NCBI GenBank assembly: GCA_016929595.1
Contig: JAFGIN010000193.1
Location: forward strand, 62,001 to 126,000
Length of the DNA: 64,000 nt
Direction of reading: 5' to 3'
Source of the DNA: Chitinispirillaceae bacterium
GTDB lineage: Bacteria > Fibrobacterota > Chitinivibrionia > Chitinivibrionales > Chitinispirillaceae
Below the pieces are notes generated by a model, which worked only from the letters and a program-made list of their open reading frames with translations, searched no databases and was not told where the DNA came from. A program made the translations under genes and the position numbers. Of this stretch, positions 51,719 to 64,000 are shown in pieces; the first letter of the stretch is position 1, and each line of letters begins with the position of its first letter.

Positions 51719-53218
51719 ATGAACAAACGAGATAGTTTAAAGTCAGTTCGTATCCTCTCCCTGATCGTAATGGGAGTATGCCTTTCAATGGCAGGTAAAA
51801 AGATCGTAGTACCTCACGATTACCCGACTATTCACCAGGCATTAGGTGAGGCTGATGAGGGTGATACGGTTTATGTTGGTAAGGGAGTTTATTACGAGAA
51901 TGTCACAATGGTTGATAACGTGGTTTTGCAGGGGCAGGATATGCTCGGTACTGTTATCGATGGACGAAGGCTCGGACCTTGTGTTACAGGTGCCGATGAT
52001 GCGACTATTACCAATTTTACAATTCGAAATGGTACTGTTGGTGTCCTCTGCAAGAACACCAGGCCGATTATTAAACGGAATCTCATAATAGATAATAAGG
52101 GTACAGGTATCCACGCGCTGATTTCATTGCCGGATATTAACAACAATGTAATATATCGCAACGAGTGGACTGGTATTTTCCTGGAAGGTTCACGGGGTAC
52201 CCGGACCAGTGTCGATCATAATGTCATTCTTGAGAATGGTTACTGTGCTATTTATTGTGCCAACAGGACAGAAGTGTTAATACGTAACAACATTACCACC
52301 CGGAATAAACAGTATGGTGTATTCATAGAGCCTCAAGCCAGAAAAACCCGTATTATTAATAACAATTTCTATGAAAACAGAGCTCCTTTCAATAATGTAG
52401 CTGTTGTTCATCAAAGCAACATTCAGAAGGAACCGATATTCATATCAGAAGGACATCCGGATTTTAATTATTTCGTTAAACCTGTATCTCCCTGTAAGGG
52501 TACCGGAGAGAACGGAACCGATATTGGACTCATTACCGATCAGATGGTTGAAGTACTCACTACGGATAAAGACGGTGATGGTATTCCCGACGACGTCGAT
52601 CAGTGCCCTGATGTTGCGGAAGATAAAGATGGATTCGAAGACATAGACGGTTGTCCCGATTACGATAATGATAAAGATGGAATTTACGATGCTCAGGATC
52701 AATGTCCCGATGAACCTGAAGACAGGGATGGATTCCAGGATGTTGATGGTTGTCCGGATCTGGATAATGACAAAGATGGTATTCCGGATGTGTCAGATGC
52801 TTGTCCAAATAATCCTGAAACTGTTAACGGTTATAAAGACACGGACGGTTGTCCTGATGAAAAACCGGAGGAAATTAAACAGACACTTGTATTACGTGGA
52901 GTGAATTTCAAAACTGCAAGTGCAGAACTGCTTGAAGAATCCTACTACGTCCTTGAACAGGTATATAACAGTCTGGAAGCATATCAGAATGTACGAGTGG
53001 AAATAGGCGGTCATACTGATGATCAGGGATCAGACGATTATAACCTGGCTTTGTCATACGATAGAGCAAAATCAGTAGTGGAATACCTGGTGATGAGAGG
53101 AATCAGTGCTGATCGATTAGTTGCTCGTGGTTATGGAGAAAGTAAACCAACTGCAAAAAATAAAGATGCAGAGGGTAGGGCCAGGAATCGGCGGGTAGAG
53201 GTCGTTCCGATACATTAA
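51719..53218 (+). CDS. OmpA-family protein with beta-helix and thrombospondin type 3 repeats
   Basis: 499 residues. Signal peptide (about 1-25, V-C-L-S-M-A-G), then a right-handed beta-helix of the pectate-lyase/NosD type at about 28-270 with short N-x-I and G-I-x-x repeats. Next come calcium-binding type 3 repeats at about 280-385 (D-K-D-G-D-G-I-P-D-D-V-D-Q-C-P-D and further copies). The C-terminal OmpA domain (about 395-499) has G-H-T-D-D-Q-G-S, L-S-Y-D-R-A-K-S and A-R-G-Y-G-E-S-K-P, whose Asp and Arg bind peptidoglycan. It probably anchors the cluster to the cell wall. First gene of the block. No ribosome binding site is visible before the ATG. Confidence 0.85.
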   Translation: MNKRDSLKSVRILSLIVMGVCLSMAGKKIVVPHDYPTIHQALGEADEGDTVYVGKGVYYENVTMVDNVVLQGQDMLGTVIDGRRLGPCVTGADDATITNFTIRNGTVGVLCKNTRPIIKRNLIIDNKGTGIHALISLPDINNNVIYRNEWTGIFLEGSRGTRTSVDHNVILENGYCAIYCANRTEVLIRNNITTRNKQYGVFIEPQARKTRIINNNFYENRAPFNNVAVVHQSNIQKEPIFISEGHPDFNYFVKPVSPCKGTGENGTDIGLITDQMVEVLTTDKDGDGIPDDVDQCPDVAEDKDGFEDIDGCPDYDNDKDGIYDAQDQCPDEPEDRDGFQDVDGCPDLDNDKDGIPDVSDACPNNPETVNGYKDTDGCPDEKPEEIKQTLVLRGVNFKTASAELLEESYYVLEQVYNSLEAYQNVRVEIGGHTDDQGSDDYNLALSYDRAKSVVEYLVMRGISADRLVARGYGESKPTAKNKDAEGRARNRRVEVVPIH

Positions 53219-53242: not shown

Positions 53243-55624
53243 GTGAAACGTTTACAAAAAGTACAAATGAGAGTGATTGGTTTTGTCGTTGCGATGATGC
53301 TTTTGGCTGGTTTATATAAAACTGCTGCAGCCAAAGCCAGTGGAGGGTATGATGCGCCCTATTTCCAGGCAGACTTTACTGAGGATCTTAACGACTGGAC
53401 TTCCTCATTGATTAATCCGGCACTGTTGTACCGTGTTAATCAGATGCATGTCGGACTGAATTTTTATAGATGGTCAGCATTTGATGACGGACTGGGATTT
53501 CAGAACTTACGGGCACTTTTTCCCATTCGTAGAAACCATACAGCCGGATTTACAACTGTGTGGACAAGCGGTATCATGGAAAAAACAACAACTTCGGAAG
53601 ATGCCGGTGTCAGTGATTCAGGATCAGTACGATTCCTTGATCTTTGGGCAATTGGACATTACAGTTACCGGATTTTCCCATTTTTAATGGTTGGGGCAAA
53701 CCTTAAATTCAGACTCCAAAACCAGTTTGGTGAAAATATCGCGTTCTCGCATATACCGGGTGTGGACCTTGGTGTTTACTGGAATCCCATAGATCATTAT
53801 CGTCTGGGAGATCTGGGCTTCAGTCTTACTTTTCAGGATCTTCTTCCAACGCAGGTGAAATGGGAAGATACTGAAAATCCGGAAATTACCATAAGTCGTG
53901 TACGTGCCGGTGTTCGCTATGCTCTCTTTAATGATAATCTGGTTCTTGATTATGAATTAGTACTGGATAATGGACTCTCACCGATATTTCAAAATTGGAA
54001 ATCTTATGCAGAAATGTTCAAAAGTGAGGGTAAAGGAAGCATACCGATAACCTATCGTAATGGTTTTCATGTAAAGTATATGTTTATCCCTCAGATATGG
54101 TTCAAATTAGGTTGGACGAATAATAATATCCCTTATCTGGGTTTCAATTATAATCTGATGTATCCATTACCTGACATGATTAACTATGTCAATTTTGATT
54201 TCAATGGAGGTTACAGTTTTATTGAAACAGTACTTCCTGGTGGTGATAAGAGAGATGAACGTGGGTTTACGGGTACGTTCAAGCTTTCAACTGATTTCGG
54301 GCAGACCCGGGAGCAGAAAGAATCAAAACGTCTTTACGATCAGCTGATTCTTGCTCCCATGGACGCTTATAATGAAGCTATGCGGTTGTATCTTGCCGGA
54401 AAATACTGGGAAGCGGCGTTTGCCTTTGGTAAAGTGCTCTCACTGTTCCCGAATTTTCATCTGAACGACAAAGCAACCTGGTACATGGGAAATAGCTACC
54501 GATTCCTTTATATGAACGATATCGCTCGTCAGGTATACAAGGATGCACTTGAAGAATTCACAACATCAGAAATGCGTTCGAAATACATTTTTGGTTTGCA
54601 AAGTCTTGATTATCGTGAAAATAAGAATGATGATGCGCTTAAAAACCATGCATTTATTACAAATCTGTATGCTGACAGTGATATTCGTCCTGATGCGGAC
54701 TATCTTGCTGGTCAGATTCATTTCAGTCGAAAAAATTACAATGTTGCAGAACAGCTGTTCTCGGCTATACAGCCTGGAGATCCTAACTATCTTTATGCTC
54801 AATACACACTTGCAATTATAAATGTTGAGAACGGTAAAGATCAGGCTGCCCTTAATCAACTGAAGGCTATAGTAAGTGATACAACACAGGAAGTTTCTGA
54901 TCAATTGCTCCAGGATGCAGCAAATACTAAACTGGGACATTTGTATTACGAAATGGGAGATAAGCTTCGTCTTGCGGTTGAGTCCTACCAGAGAGTTGAG
55001 GAAGGCTCTACGTACCAGGATGAAGCATTACTGGGTACGGCATGGGCATGGATAAAGGTAAATCAACCAAATGTGTCCTTGCAGACCTCAGAGAGACTGA
55101 TTTCATCCTTTCCTGAGTCACCCTTGATTCCTGAGGCATTTCTATTAAAAGGGTATGCTTTAATGTTACTTAAAAGGCAGCCTGAGGCTCTGACTGTTCT
55201 CGAACAGTGTGTAGCTGCATGCAACAGAACTTTTATAACTGATGAAGATCTTGCCGCGAAAAAATCTCAATTTGAGCAAACTACCAATGAGTTCGCTCCG
55301 ACAGCAGAGATGATACTCAAAAATGCAAAAAGAAAGCCAACTAACAGAACGCTTGAAGAACGGTCACCGCTTCAAAATGAATTTGAGAAATTTGCAAAAG
55401 AATCGAAGGCATATTTTAATTACACACTTCTGGCGAAGTCTCACACACGTTTTTTCAAGAGAAAAGAAGAGATTCTCATGGATGCTGAATATGCTCTTGC
55501 TCGTGTAACCAAAGCTGTTAATGCAAAGAAGGCTAATGAGTTGATTCGGGATGCAAAAGAGAAGAGTGAGAAGATTGATGAAGAGATCGAAAAATTAAAA
55601 GAAGAACTCGATAAGCAAAATTAA
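53243..55624 (+). CDS. Outer-membrane-type protein with TPR repeats and C-terminal coiled coil
   Basis: 793 residues from GTG 53243 (AAGG about 10 bases upstream). Signal sequence at about 1-30, then roughly 310 residues rich in Gly and aromatic residues that begin S-S-L-I-N-P-A-L-L-Y and resemble PorV/FadL-like barrels. From about 340 to 680 there are TPR-like helical repeats (for example Y-L-A-G-K-Y-W-E-A-A-F-A-F-G-K). The last 40 residues form a charged coiled coil (K-E-K-S-E-K-I-D-E-E-I-E-K-L). The combination of barrel and TPR suggests an outer-membrane hub with periplasmic arms. I recognise no named family. Confidence 0.65.
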   Translation: MKRLQKVQMRVIGFVVAMMLLAGLYKTAAAKASGGYDAPYFQADFTEDLNDWTSSLINPALLYRVNQMHVGLNFYRWSAFDDGLGFQNLRALFPIRRNHTAGFTTVWTSGIMEKTTTSEDAGVSDSGSVRFLDLWAIGHYSYRIFPFLMVGANLKFRLQNQFGENIAFSHIPGVDLGVYWNPIDHYRLGDLGFSLTFQDLLPTQVKWEDTENPEITISRVRAGVRYALFNDNLVLDYELVLDNGLSPIFQNWKSYAEMFKSEGKGSIPITYRNGFHVKYMFIPQIWFKLGWTNNNIPYLGFNYNLMYPLPDMINYVNFDFNGGYSFIETVLPGGDKRDERGFTGTFKLSTDFGQTREQKESKRLYDQLILAPMDAYNEAMRLYLAGKYWEAAFAFGKVLSLFPNFHLNDKATWYMGNSYRFLYMNDIARQVYKDALEEFTTSEMRSKYIFGLQSLDYRENKNDDALKNHAFITNLYADSDIRPDADYLAGQIHFSRKNYNVAEQLFSAIQPGDPNYLYAQYTLAIINVENGKDQAALNQLKAIVSDTTQEVSDQLLQDAANTKLGHLYYEMGDKLRLAVESYQRVEEGSTYQDEALLGTAWAWIKVNQPNVSLQTSERLISSFPESPLIPEAFLLKGYALMLLKRQPEALTVLEQCVAACNRTFITDEDLAAKKSQFEQTTNEFAPTAEMILKNAKRKPTNRTLEERSPLQNEFEKFAKESKAYFNYTLLAKSHTRFFKRKEEILMDAEYALARVTKAVNAKKANELIRDAKEKSEKIDEEIEKLKEELDKQN

Positions 55625-60171: not shown

Positions 60172-60957
60172 ATGAGAAACAGAAAAAAAATGACTGTAAG
60201 CCAGGACATGGACCTTAAACCGTTCATGAACCTGATGGTTACCCTGATTCCAATGCTTCTTATCTCTGCAGAATTTGCTAAGGTTGCTATCATTGATATC
60301 AAGCTGCCTGAGCAACGCGGTTCGCAGACTAAGACTGCTGTTACACAACAGCCACAGGAAGACAAAAGTGAGAAACTCCTTCTTACAGCGATTGTAACAG
60401 ATTCAGTGGTAACGTTGGGAGCAAAAGGCGGATTTATGCCTAGCCTTTTCTACTCAGAGTATCATCATTATATTGCTAATGATGATAATCACGATTTTAC
60501 GGTTGCGTATGAACCTGGTAAGCCCGTAAAACATCCCAATACCGGAAGAGATATGACAATTTACGAGAGATATGACATTTACCTTTATACCGTAGATGGC
60601 GAAACTCGTCAAATGATTAAAACTCTTTATACCAGTTTTGGTGAAATGCTTACTAACGCAAACTCAGAGCCTGTTCAGCAGGCAAATGTTGGAGACACGT
60701 TGTATGCTCTATCGAATCCCCGAAGAGTTATAATTGTCAAAAATCCTGCAGAGTTTGAGTTAAAACCGATGTCTGCATATGATGAGTTAAAAAATCGCCT
60801 TATGAAAGTAAAAGAACGGTATCGGGATGCTGAGGATGGCAATGATGTAATTATCGCTGCTGAGAACCAGGTTATCTATGATAAAATCGTTCAGATCATG
60901 GATAAGGCAAGGGAAGCTGAATTTCCTAACATATCTATTGCAAAGTTGAGGGGTTAA
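60172..60957 (+). CDS. TolR/ExbD-like protein with Asn in place of the membrane Asp
   Basis: 261 residues, longer than usual ExbD (about 140). The single membrane helix begins D-L-K-P-F-M-N-L-M-V-T-L-I-P-M-L-L; the position normally held by the proton-accepting Asp (V-D-V or M-D-M) is Asn20. A periplasmic domain of about 210 residues follows. Its middle carries an insertion, so only the C-terminal part has a recognisable ExbD-like pattern (V-I-I-A-A-E-N-Q-V-I-Y-D-K-I-V-Q-I-M-D). The Asn suggests a non-protonatable partner to the next gene's product. AGGGAGAGG precedes the ATG. Confidence 0.85.
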   Translation: MRNRKKMTVSQDMDLKPFMNLMVTLIPMLLISAEFAKVAIIDIKLPEQRGSQTKTAVTQQPQEDKSEKLLLTAIVTDSVVTLGAKGGFMPSLFYSEYHHYIANDDNHDFTVAYEPGKPVKHPNTGRDMTIYERYDIYLYTVDGETRQMIKTLYTSFGEMLTNANSEPVQQANVGDTLYALSNPRRVIIVKNPAEFELKPMSAYDELKNRLMKVKERYRDAEDGNDVIIAAENQVIYDKIVQIMDKAREAEFPNISIAKLRG

Positions 60958-60958
60958 T

Positions 60959-61465
60959 ATGGCAAATGCTAAAGGTCGTACCAAAAAGGTACCAAGAAAT
61001 AATGACCTGAACGTGACCTCCATGATGGATATGTTCACTATTATTCTTGTGTTCCTTCTAAAGTCGTTCTCCTCTGAAGGTAGTCTTCTTACAAACGCTG
61101 ATAACCTTGTGTTACCGAACTCGGTATCCAAGAAAAAACCTCAGGAAGTCAATCTTCAGCTGGCGGTTACAAATGAAATGGTTCTGGTTGATAACCAGCC
61201 CGTCATTCCAACAGAAGATGTAAGGAAAATACCTGCAGATGATCCTGATCCTTCTCCGCCTAAACTCATAGAAAAGTTAAAGGCATGCTACGCAATGGAA
61301 GAGGAGATGGTTCGCCTTGGTGCCATTAATCAGGTCCAGGGTAAAATCGTTATACAGGTAGATAAAAACATCGACTTCGATGTTCTGTTTAAGATAATGA
61401 ACACATGCGGAAAAGTTGGATACAATAACATGAATTTTGCTGTCATGGAAAGGGATCAGGGGTAA
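60959..61465 (+). CDS. TolR/ExbD-like protein with conserved membrane Asp
   Basis: 168 residues. The helix reads N-D-L-N-V-T-S-M-M-D-M-F-T-I-I-L-V-F-L-L-K-S-F; Asp24 is the expected proton-carrying residue. A periplasmic domain follows with the typical ExbD end (G-K-I-V-I-Q-V-D-K-N-I-D-F-D and V-G-Y-N-N-M-N-F-A-V). It starts one base after the previous stop, with AGGGG inside that gene as ribosome binding site. Probably pairs with the upstream paralogue inside the TolQ channel. Confidence 0.9.
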   Translation: MANAKGRTKKVPRNNDLNVTSMMDMFTIILVFLLKSFSSEGSLLTNADNLVLPNSVSKKKPQEVNLQLAVTNEMVLVDNQPVIPTEDVRKIPADDPDPSPPKLIEKLKACYAMEEEMVRLGAINQVQGKIVIQVDKNIDFDVLFKIMNTCGKVGYNNMNFAVMERDQG

Positions 61466-62790
61466 TGAAATATAAAGTTCTTATCCAGAAATGTTCTGAT
61501 CCTCAACGGGCAACCCGGATTGCGGAAGAGATTGCGCGATGGTCTGGTAGTACGGTCGATGTAGTTTTAAATGTAATTACTCAGAAACCTGTATGTATCA
61601 GGAAAGAAGCTGATGAAGCTGAAGCGCGCAGGCTCCAGGAGCAGTTTGGAACTGTTGGGGCAACTGTCGAACTCGTCCCGCTCGGGCAGACTCATGGTGC
61701 TGCTCCTGTCGCATCGGTTGCAACTGCAGCAAGTGCACAGGGATATCAGCAGGCACCCAGAAAAGCCGGAGATGATGACGAGGATGATGAGCCTGGACGT
61801 GTTTTATCCGAAGCTGAATATGCAGAGATGCTGAAAACTCGTGGAGATATTTTTAAAATTGAGAAACAAAATCAACTAAGAAATACCGAACTTGTTTGTA
61901 TGATACTTGCGATTCTCGTCGGTATCTATTTCAGCACACGTGAAATCGTTCAGATCGCTACTGATTTCTTCGAAAAAGTTCCTGAAGAGCGTGTTGCAAA
62001 ACTTGTTAAAGAAGAGGTTGATGCAACTCTCGATAAGAAAAAGGAAGAGAAAAAAGAGGAAGAAATCAAATCAGATAAGAAAAAACTTACACCAAAAAAG
62101 AGCCAGGGAAAAGGTGGTATGCAGGGAGGTGGAGGTGATCCACGTGCTCGTGTTACACACAAAGGAGTTCTTGGTATCATTTCTGGTCAGATTAAAGGAA
62201 AGTCTGTTGCATCTGCAGATATTTTTGGTAAAGGTGGATTCGCGACAGATATTGACGCTATTCTCTCTGGAGTTGGCGGTCTTAAATCTGGTGGTAGTGG
62301 AGGTGTAGGAAGAAAAGGTGTCGCCGGTATCGGATATGGAGCGGGTTATGGAAGCGGTTTTGGTGGCAGTGGTGCTGGTGGAATCGATGACCTCATCGGT
62401 GGTCTGATGGGTGGCGATGGTGGTGGGCTTAATCTCAAGAAGAGAGGTTCACTCAAGATTTCTGCACCGGAATTTCTTAAGGGTGGAGCCTTGACTGGTG
62501 GAAGAAGTAAAGCAAGTATCATGCGTGTGGTTATGCAGAACCTTGCAGCGCTTCGTTATGCCTATAACAAACGCCTGAGAGATAAACCCGGTTTGAATGG
62601 AAAGATTACATGCAAATTTGCAATTGATGAGTTTGGAAAGGTAATTTTCTGTCAGGTTGTAGAATCAACAATGGGTGATTCTGAGCTTGAAACGCTTATC
62701 GCTGCAAAGATAAAACTCTGGGTATTCGAGAAAATCGACAAGCCTGGTGATGTGACAGAAGTAGTCTATCCTTTTGTTTTCTCACAATAG
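61465..62790 (+). CDS. AgmX/TonB-like energy transducer with N-terminal L7/L12-like domain
   Basis: 441 residues. Residues about 13-72 resemble the ribosomal L7/L12 C-terminal fold (V-D-V-V-L-N-V-I, then K-E-A-D-E-A-E-A-R-R-L-Q-E-Q-F, then G-A-T-V-E-L-V). An acidic linker leads to one membrane helix at about 141-158, a charged Lys/Glu coiled coil (165-215), a glycine-rich stretch (about 215-340), and a TonB/AgmX-type C-terminal domain (about 345-441) with I-T-C-K-F-A-I-D-E-F-G-K-V. The long N-terminal part would be cytoplasmic. AgmX/GltJ proteins link inner-membrane motors to the outer membrane. It overlaps the previous stop by one base (TAATG). Confidence 0.82.
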   Translation: MKYKVLIQKCSDPQRATRIAEEIARWSGSTVDVVLNVITQKPVCIRKEADEAEARRLQEQFGTVGATVELVPLGQTHGAAPVASVATAASAQGYQQAPRKAGDDDEDDEPGRVLSEAEYAEMLKTRGDIFKIEKQNQLRNTELVCMILAILVGIYFSTREIVQIATDFFEKVPEERVAKLVKEEVDATLDKKKEEKKEEEIKSDKKKLTPKKSQGKGGMQGGGGDPRARVTHKGVLGIISGQIKGKSVASADIFGKGGFATDIDAILSGVGGLKSGGSGGVGRKGVAGIGYGAGYGSGFGGSGAGGIDDLIGGLMGGDGGGLNLKKRGSLKISAPEFLKGGALTGGRSKASIMRVVMQNLAALRYAYNKRLRDKPGLNGKITCKFAIDEFGKVIFCQVVESTMGDSELETLIAAKIKLWVFEKIDKPGDVTEVVYPFVFSQ

Positions 62791-62891: not shown

Positions 62892-62983
62892 TTAATAATT
62901 ACGACCGATATTACTTAACAACCTGCAAACAGTAATAATATTTTATGTGACATAATGGGGATTGAATGAATGGGAGGATCTGT

Positions 62984-64000
62984 ATGAAAAAGGTGCTGTT
63001 TTGGGCGTTAGCAGCGGGGTGCTGTGCCAGTAGTTTTGCAACTGATGCAAGAGTTATTACAATGGGACGTCATGATGCTTTCTTTATGGATGAAGCAAGC
63101 ATTTATAGAAATCCGGCAAATATAAATATTTACCCAAACATGGTATATGGGTCATACGGGTACTACAATCAGGACTCGACTGTGGATAAAGAAAATGGAA
63201 ACAGAGATCCATTAGACCCATTTTTTGGTGCAATAATTTCATATTCACTCAATCAGGGAACTGATGGCGGAAGTCAGTACCCGATGCTCTCATTAGGGGC
63301 ATTTTTTAACCGTTATGATCAAATGCTTGATTATGTTACACCTGGAAAGGCTAAATTTCTTGGAAATGGATTGAAAGCAAGAGAAAAAATTTATAGCCCC
63401 AAAGGTAAAATTGATCTTTTGCTTGGCTATGTGATGGAAAAAGGGGGAATGATAGGTGGAGGGGTATATATTGCCACTCAACAGATTAAAGAAGACGGTC
63501 AGGAATTTGAAACAAGTGTTTATAAAGGAAGTGTCGGTATCAATATACCCGTTGCAAAATCAATGGATCTTGAAGTATCCATTAATGGTGGAACGATTAC
63601 AGCAATTGCAAAAGATTCTGCTGCAAATGGCAGTGTCTACCAGAATAAACTTGCTGAAGGGGATTATTTCGGTACGCTTGAAGCACGGCTCTTTTCATCA
63701 CTTTCCTCTTTGAATGGTGATTTTGTTCCTCATCTGAGAATTGATGTACTTGAACTTGATAGAAGTAAAACGTTTGATCTTGGTCTTGCAGCTGGACTGG
63801 GCGTTAATATAAACATAGACAAAGGATTCTTCTGGACTGGAATGGAGTTTCTTTATGGGCAACAGGACTCCTCAAATTCTACAGCAAAAGAATATATTGG
63901 TGGAAGGGTTTCTTTTGGTATAGAGAGAAATATAATCTGGGATTGGTTTGTTATCAGAGTCGGTGGTCAGAAAGAGTTGAAATATGTAAGCGAGGGTTCG
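62984..64000 (+). CDS. Exported barrel-like protein, 3' end outside the window
   Basis: Open to the window end, at least 339 codons. Signal peptide at about 1-20 (V-L-F-W-A-L-A-A-G-C-C-A-S-S-F-A), then M-G-R-H-D-A-F-F-M-D-E-A-S-I-Y-R-N-P-A-N-I, a start typical of PorV/FadL-like outer-membrane barrels, and alternating aromatic/Gly strands (S-Y-G-Y-Y, L-L-L-G-Y-V-M-E-K-G-G-M). GGGAGGATCTGT lies before ATG 62984. It resembles the barrel part of the protein encoded at 53243 only in style. Probably another outer-membrane component, but it may be a separate transcript because a hairpin precedes it. Confidence 0.7.
   Translation, partial: MKKVLFWALAAGCCASSFATDARVITMGRHDAFFMDEASIYRNPANINIYPNMVYGSYGYYNQDSTVDKENGNRDPLDPFFGAIISYSLNQGTDGGSQYPMLSLGAFFNRYDQMLDYVTPGKAKFLGNGLKAREKIYSPKGKIDLLLGYVMEKGGMIGGGVYIATQQIKEDGQEFETSVYKGSVGINIPVAKSMDLEVSINGGTITAIAKDSAANGSVYQNKLAEGDYFGTLEARLFSSLSSLNGDFVPHLRIDVLELDRSKTFDLGLAAGLGVNINIDKGFFWTGMEFLYGQQDSSNSTAKEYIGGRVSFGIERNIIWDWFVIRVGGQKELKYVSEGS

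Follow-up and report, generated by a model that had tools for sequence, protein, structure and literature searches.

How proton flow is turned into movement in 5:2 motors is debated, and current schemes alternate the two Asp residues of the dimer. The shaft of the 5:2 motors ExbB–ExbD and TolQ–TolR of Escherichia coli is built from a single protein that forms a homodimer and hence carries two Asp. In such homodimeric motors the two shaft subunits are seated unequally in the pentamer, and Thr148 and Thr181 of ExbB act together with the Asp of ExbD (PMC12965293). Closest in gene content to the locus described here is the AglRQS motor of Myxococcus xanthus with its Glt/Nfs partners (PMC3169522), which consists of a TolQ-like protein, two tandem TolR-like proteins, a GltG/AgmX-type protein, TPR proteins and outer-membrane proteins. 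Asp is described in both AglQ and AglS, which places them in the two-Asp class according to the literature, and AglQ with the engineered mutation D28N supports neither proton conductance nor gliding nor sporulation (PMC3858216). The core gene set, including that of a member of the Fibrobacteres, already appears in Luciano et al. 2011 (PMC3169522), the main text of which does not discuss the Asp.

The window analysed here, a stretch of 64 000 nucleotides, comes from a 6.6 Mb genome assembly of 224 contigs that belongs to Fibrobacterota, judging by close relatives named Chitinispirillum, Chitinispirillaceae and Chitinivibrionales. From 51.7 kb to the end of the window, genes for an OmpA-like protein, two TPR proteins, an ExbB/TolQ/AglR-like protein, two ExbD/TolR paralogues, a GltG-like protein and a further outer-membrane protein follow each other on one strand (Table 1). 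A TolQ-like gene, two TolR-like genes, a GltG-like gene and TPR and outer-membrane genes are thus present in one cluster, as in the AglRQS/Glt core gene set. The Asp that AglRQS has in both TolR-like proteins is missing from the first of them at this locus, where residue 20 is Asn. The AglQ position is therefore neutral here, and the protein that occupies it also differs from AglQ in a proline seven residues further on and in a large insert. In M. xanthus, AglRQS powers gliding, a possible function of the system in the window.

Table 1. Features of the gene cluster at the end of the window.
Feature	Position	Strand	Evidence
OmpA-like outer-membrane protein	51719..53218	+	NCBIfam OmpA-type matches
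TPR protein, weakly GltC-similar	53243..55624	+	NF033756 2.7e-9, below cut-off
Large TPR protein, 1236 aa	55680..59390	+	TPR families, YbgF/BamD-like repeats
ExbB/TolQ/AglR-like channel subunit, 212 aa	59495..60133	+	PF01618 4.9e-25
First ExbD/TolR paralogue, 261 aa	60172..60957	+	PF02472
Asn20 codon AAC, first ExbD/TolR paralogue	60229..60231	+	Read from sequence; aligned to Asp column
Second ExbD/TolR paralogue, 168 aa	60959..61465	+	PF02472
Asp24 codon GAT, second ExbD/TolR paralogue	61028..61030	+	Read from sequence; invariant across partners
GltG-like/TonB-like protein, 441 aa, AgmX/PglI C-terminal domain	61465..62790	+	NF033768 4.2e-22, above cut-off
Outer-membrane porin-like protein	62966..64000, continues past window edge	+	Weak NF053618 PopA 4.3e-7, below cut-off

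A single base separates the stop codon of the first ExbD/TolR gene from the start of the second, and the start of the GltG-like gene overlaps the stop of the latter. The GltG-like protein stays below the cut-off of the GltG equivalog family NF033760 (107.6 bits against 650; 6.1e-31), which aligns to its C-terminal part alone. In Fibrobacter succinogenes, the products of Fisuc_1894–1897 were found in the membrane proteome and are annotated as MotA/TolQ/ExbB, two ExbD/TolR proteins (32.4 and 18.2 kDa) and a TonB-family protein (PMC4619616). Their order and sizes agree with the gene set in the window, of which they are probably orthologues.

Both reading frames contain the motifs on which the initial annotation was based (...QDMDLKPFMN(20)LMVTLIPMLL... 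in the first protein and ...LNVTSMMD(24)MFTIILVFLL... in the second), and both proteins match Pfam family PF02472 well above its cut-off of 25.4 bits, with 44.6 bits for the first and 51.4 bits for the second. The second paralogue has the N-terminal transmembrane helix with the proton-site Asp and the C-terminal domain expected of an ExbD/TolR protein, and its family profile sets the invariant Asp24 on Asp25 of E. coli ExbD (PDB entry 6tyi). The C-terminal domain of the first paralogue likewise has the family fold: Foldseek retrieves TolR (PDB entry 5by4) with probability 1.00, at a limited E value of 5e-3, and ExbD (PDB entries 8pek and 8vgc). In a profile alignment anchored on the transmembrane helix, its Asn20 shares a column with Asp25 of E. 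coli ExbD, as had been proposed. The helix thus lacks the protonatable Asp, and the first paralogue is, as far as its sequence tells, an ExbD/TolR homologue that is not a working ExbD by itself. The proposal would have failed if an Asp had moved along the helix. This can be ruled out, since all 179 neutral first members are free of acidic residues between positions −5 and +13 relative to the site. The acids that occur at −8 and −6 are located at the cytoplasmic end; no more than about half of these proteins have Asp at −6, and most of the others have Asn.

The large extra periplasmic part that had been ascribed to the first protein is real. It is a β-rich insert of residues about 72–199, predicted with pLDDT values mostly above 90 and placed between the transmembrane helix and the ExbD/TolR C-terminal domain (202–258). 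Apart from the ExbD/TolR domain, a fold search with the insert matched nothing significantly, the TM-scores of actin/MreB-like folds being near 0.25. Two open reading frames from other loci (L286, 294–2210, 639 aa; L285, 2638–3861, 408 aa) are similar to the first protein in its periplasmic part only (about 54–259) and seem to have no transmembrane site; perhaps the insert domain is reused elsewhere.

The pore of the channel subunit is of the familiar type. Alignment to the E. coli TolQ and ExbB chains identifies Thr137 and Thr171 as the equivalents of Thr148 and Thr181 of ExbB, and both columns are invariant in 196 ExbB homologues, one gap apart. The locus thus has in common with ExbB–ExbD and TolQ–TolR the channel family with its threonines, the ExbD/TolR domain and the Asp of the second protein; the difference is that two paralogues with one Asp replace one protein with two. 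Where E. coli ExbB has Glu176, the protein in the window has Val166. An equivalent of Glu176 is found in five of seven two-Asp systems and in one of 157 neutral systems with a separate ExbB. As a compensating change, loss of this residue is no more than a lead, with just two well-supported independent comparisons; an Asp-only system of the source genome (L004) also lacks the glutamate. At two further loci of the source genome (L049, 4213–6753, contig C193; L003, 1–1878, contig C18), two different ExbB genes are followed by one Asp-type ExbD, and one ExbB has the Glu176 equivalent while the other does not, which hints at a mixed ExbB pentamer.

The unequal pair recurs throughout the source genome. 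Ten of its 14 ExbD domains form five tandem pairs, all of them with the neutral member first and the Asp member second, and the four solo ExbDs all have Asp. In one of these pairs (C184) the neutral ExbD is fused onto the C-terminus of ExbB. The check on orthologues came out in favour of the proposal, and the pattern proved far wider than the sequence of the window could show. First members from Fibrobacterota carry N, G, S, C or A at the site and never an acid; Asp is present in seven first members that are more distant. Strict conservation of Asn can be discarded: one family (f8, probably Fibrobacteraceae) has mostly Gly, and Ser, Ala, Cys and Thr occur in others. Since all these residues replace Asn, the conserved feature in the aligned proteins is the absence of an acid, usually in the form of Asn.

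Across 186 distinct pairs that can be read at both sites, no second member lacks Asp, while the first has N in 147, G in 18, S in 6, A in 4, C in 3, T in 1 and D in 7, an overall neutral share that is biased because part of the set was selected for N. The selected part stems from a motif scan of named genomes with 80 hits in KSB1, Calditrichota, Bacteroidota, a bin labelled Deferribacteres and Fibrobacterota; wherever the contig extends further, in 79 cases, an Asp-type ExbD lies directly downstream. A sample that is unbiased in this respect came from 160 genomes outside Fibrobacterota, searched with a profile built on the Asp partner. The partner was present in 41 of them, and the site could be read in 42 first members next to it: 35 are neutral (32 N and one each of S, G and T) and seven have Asp. 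A proline at +7 (Pro27 in the window) accompanies the neutral site: 174 of the 179 neutral first members have it, and all seven with Asp lack it. The seven two-Asp pairs, which are of the AglQ/AglS kind, are found at L208, L214, L224, L225, L228, L241 and L243. A tree of ExbB and its partner contains Asp/neutral switches of either possible direction, at least two of them on well-supported branches and at best five in all. As about five switches are needed, the neutral state is not only widespread but has also undergone more than one change. Judging from these genomes, the unequal pair is not a local quirk and occurs in dozens of bacterial families.

We propose, with a probability of roughly 0.64, that the locus encodes a proton motor of the AglRQS/ExbBD type with a heterodimeric shaft inside an ExbB pentamer, in a 5:1:1 stoichiometry and with one protonatable residue per motor. 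The shaft would consist of the neutral subunit in the AglQ position and the Asp subunit in the AglS position, with the ExbB/AglR protein as the surrounding pentamer and the helices of both subunits sharing one pore. Asp24 alone would cycle the proton past Thr137 and Thr171, and Asn20 would act as an arm that is permanently protonated-like. With a single site, about five protons would be used per turn instead of ten. The heterodimer and its stoichiometry are inferred, and the evidence for a shared pore is indirect: the strict pairing, the fusion architecture and the couplings described below, and the known asymmetry of homodimeric motors. A precedent for joint insertion exists in the TolQ-associated vWA transducer pairs (PMC12204202), heterologous gene pairs predicted to enter a TolQ-like pentamer together, although their periplasmic domains are different and each member has an Asp. 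Also in favour, the natural Asn resembles the MotB mutation D22N, described as protonation-mimetic (PMC9389320). Against a single-site motor counts the inactivating D28N mutation of AglQ, because of which one Asp is insufficient in this two-Asp relative. Neutral systems must consequently differ from AglRQS beyond the site residue, and candidates for such further differences are the proline at +7 and perhaps the glutamate position of ExbB.

Couplings between the two proteins were determined by mean-field direct-coupling analysis of the 186 pairs and compared with a null in which partners were re-paired within broad clades. The strongest have z values of 8.9, 8.8, 7.8 and 7.5, against 6.8 for the best and 4.7 for the third best of the null; the signal survives re-pairing among close relatives only, so relatedness at a middle level is a possible cause of it. 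The top ten couplings all join transmembrane to transmembrane or periplasmic to periplasmic positions, with five of the former where 0.2 are expected. They include Met19, beside Asn20, with Met23, beside Asp24, and Ile256 with Phe140. These couplings suggest contact between the neutral and the Asp protein, with some transmembrane couplings at odds with a simple parallel helix pair.

Fusions of ExbB to the neutral ExbD are found in many Fibrobacterota genomes. An unfused ExbB gene lies just upstream in all 16 cases with readable upstream DNA, and an Asp ExbD lies downstream wherever the contig continues. At L045 (4958–7536), ExbB, the ExbB–ExbD(neutral) fusion, the Asp ExbD and a TonB-like gene stand in a row. 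If all five ExbB were fusions, the pore, which has space for two helices, would be faced with five neutral ones; four plain and one fused ExbB would supply a single neutral helix and leave room for one Asp helix. The fusion operons fit the latter arrangement, in which the fused ExbB brings the neutral subunit with it and a single Asp subunit completes the shaft. The AlphaFold2 single-chain model of the fusion (pTM 0.48, pLDDT about 50 at the second transmembrane helix) is too weak to position this helix.

The same data bear on the other ways in which the two proteins could be used. They might form two separate homodimers, the Asp protein in a working 5:2 motor and the neutral protein in a non-conducting structural or regulatory complex in other pentamers. 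The periplasmic domains of ExbD and TolR are known to be homodimeric (PMC4646322; PDB entry 8pek), and the two ExbB genes of the fusion operons could supply two complexes. Most loci have a single ExbB for both proteins, however, and the strict pairing of genes that nearly abut or overlap (median gap of four bases in open-frame coordinates), the crowding expected in a fused homopentamer and the inter-protein couplings all make this arrangement unlikely. Similarly improbable is a neutral protein that works as an accessory outside the pentamer, like TonB or TolA, next to a motor with an Asp homodimer. Loss of the acid is easily explained once a helix has left the pore, and fusion to ExbB would permit up to five copies, comparable to the 5:2:5 structure of TolQRA (PMC12965293). 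Yet both the helix pattern and the C-terminal domain of ExbD are retained, the site is mostly Asn (147 of 179) and not random, and seven homologues retain Asp there. In addition, the outer position is already taken by a separate TonB/GltG-like protein, plain ExbB always accompanies the fusions, and residue couplings link the helix to that of the Asp partner. Neutral subunits could also be a brake that enters part of the Asp motors with a dominant-negative effect and thereby sets how many of them are active. This would agree with the inactive AglQ D28N but is very unlikely: genes that abut are likely to yield the two proteins in similar amounts, which would inactivate most motors, and an optional inhibitor is hard to reconcile with a pattern conserved across many families and shared by five operons of the source genome.

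In the 5:1:1 motor, the asymmetry of the shaft, together with the large insert carried by its neutral subunit, would determine which side engages the GltG-like protein, the TPR proteins and the outer-membrane proteins. The output of the motor is likely to be Glt-like, with these proteins relaying movement to the cell surface, and adhesion, polymer export and gliding are candidate uses.

In the open-access literature that we searched, we found no report of ExbD partners with a neutral site. The gene set is known, and our best reading is that the neutral-site pair is a widespread but so far unreported form of the AglRQS/ExbBD type. Somewhat short of even odds, we extend this to many phyla, where the 5:2 motor may naturally be a 5:1:1 motor with a single protonatable residue and about five protons per turn, and where the neutral, proline-bearing subunit (here with a large insert) may serve as a dedicated arm. 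What is lethal to the motor of Myxococcus is the rule in systems with a neutral and an Asp subunit, and a natural, conserved one-Asp pair opens the mechanism of 5:2 motors to tests that do not depend on engineered mutants. If the proposal is true, two-site alternation, the core of current rotary models, would be unnecessary.
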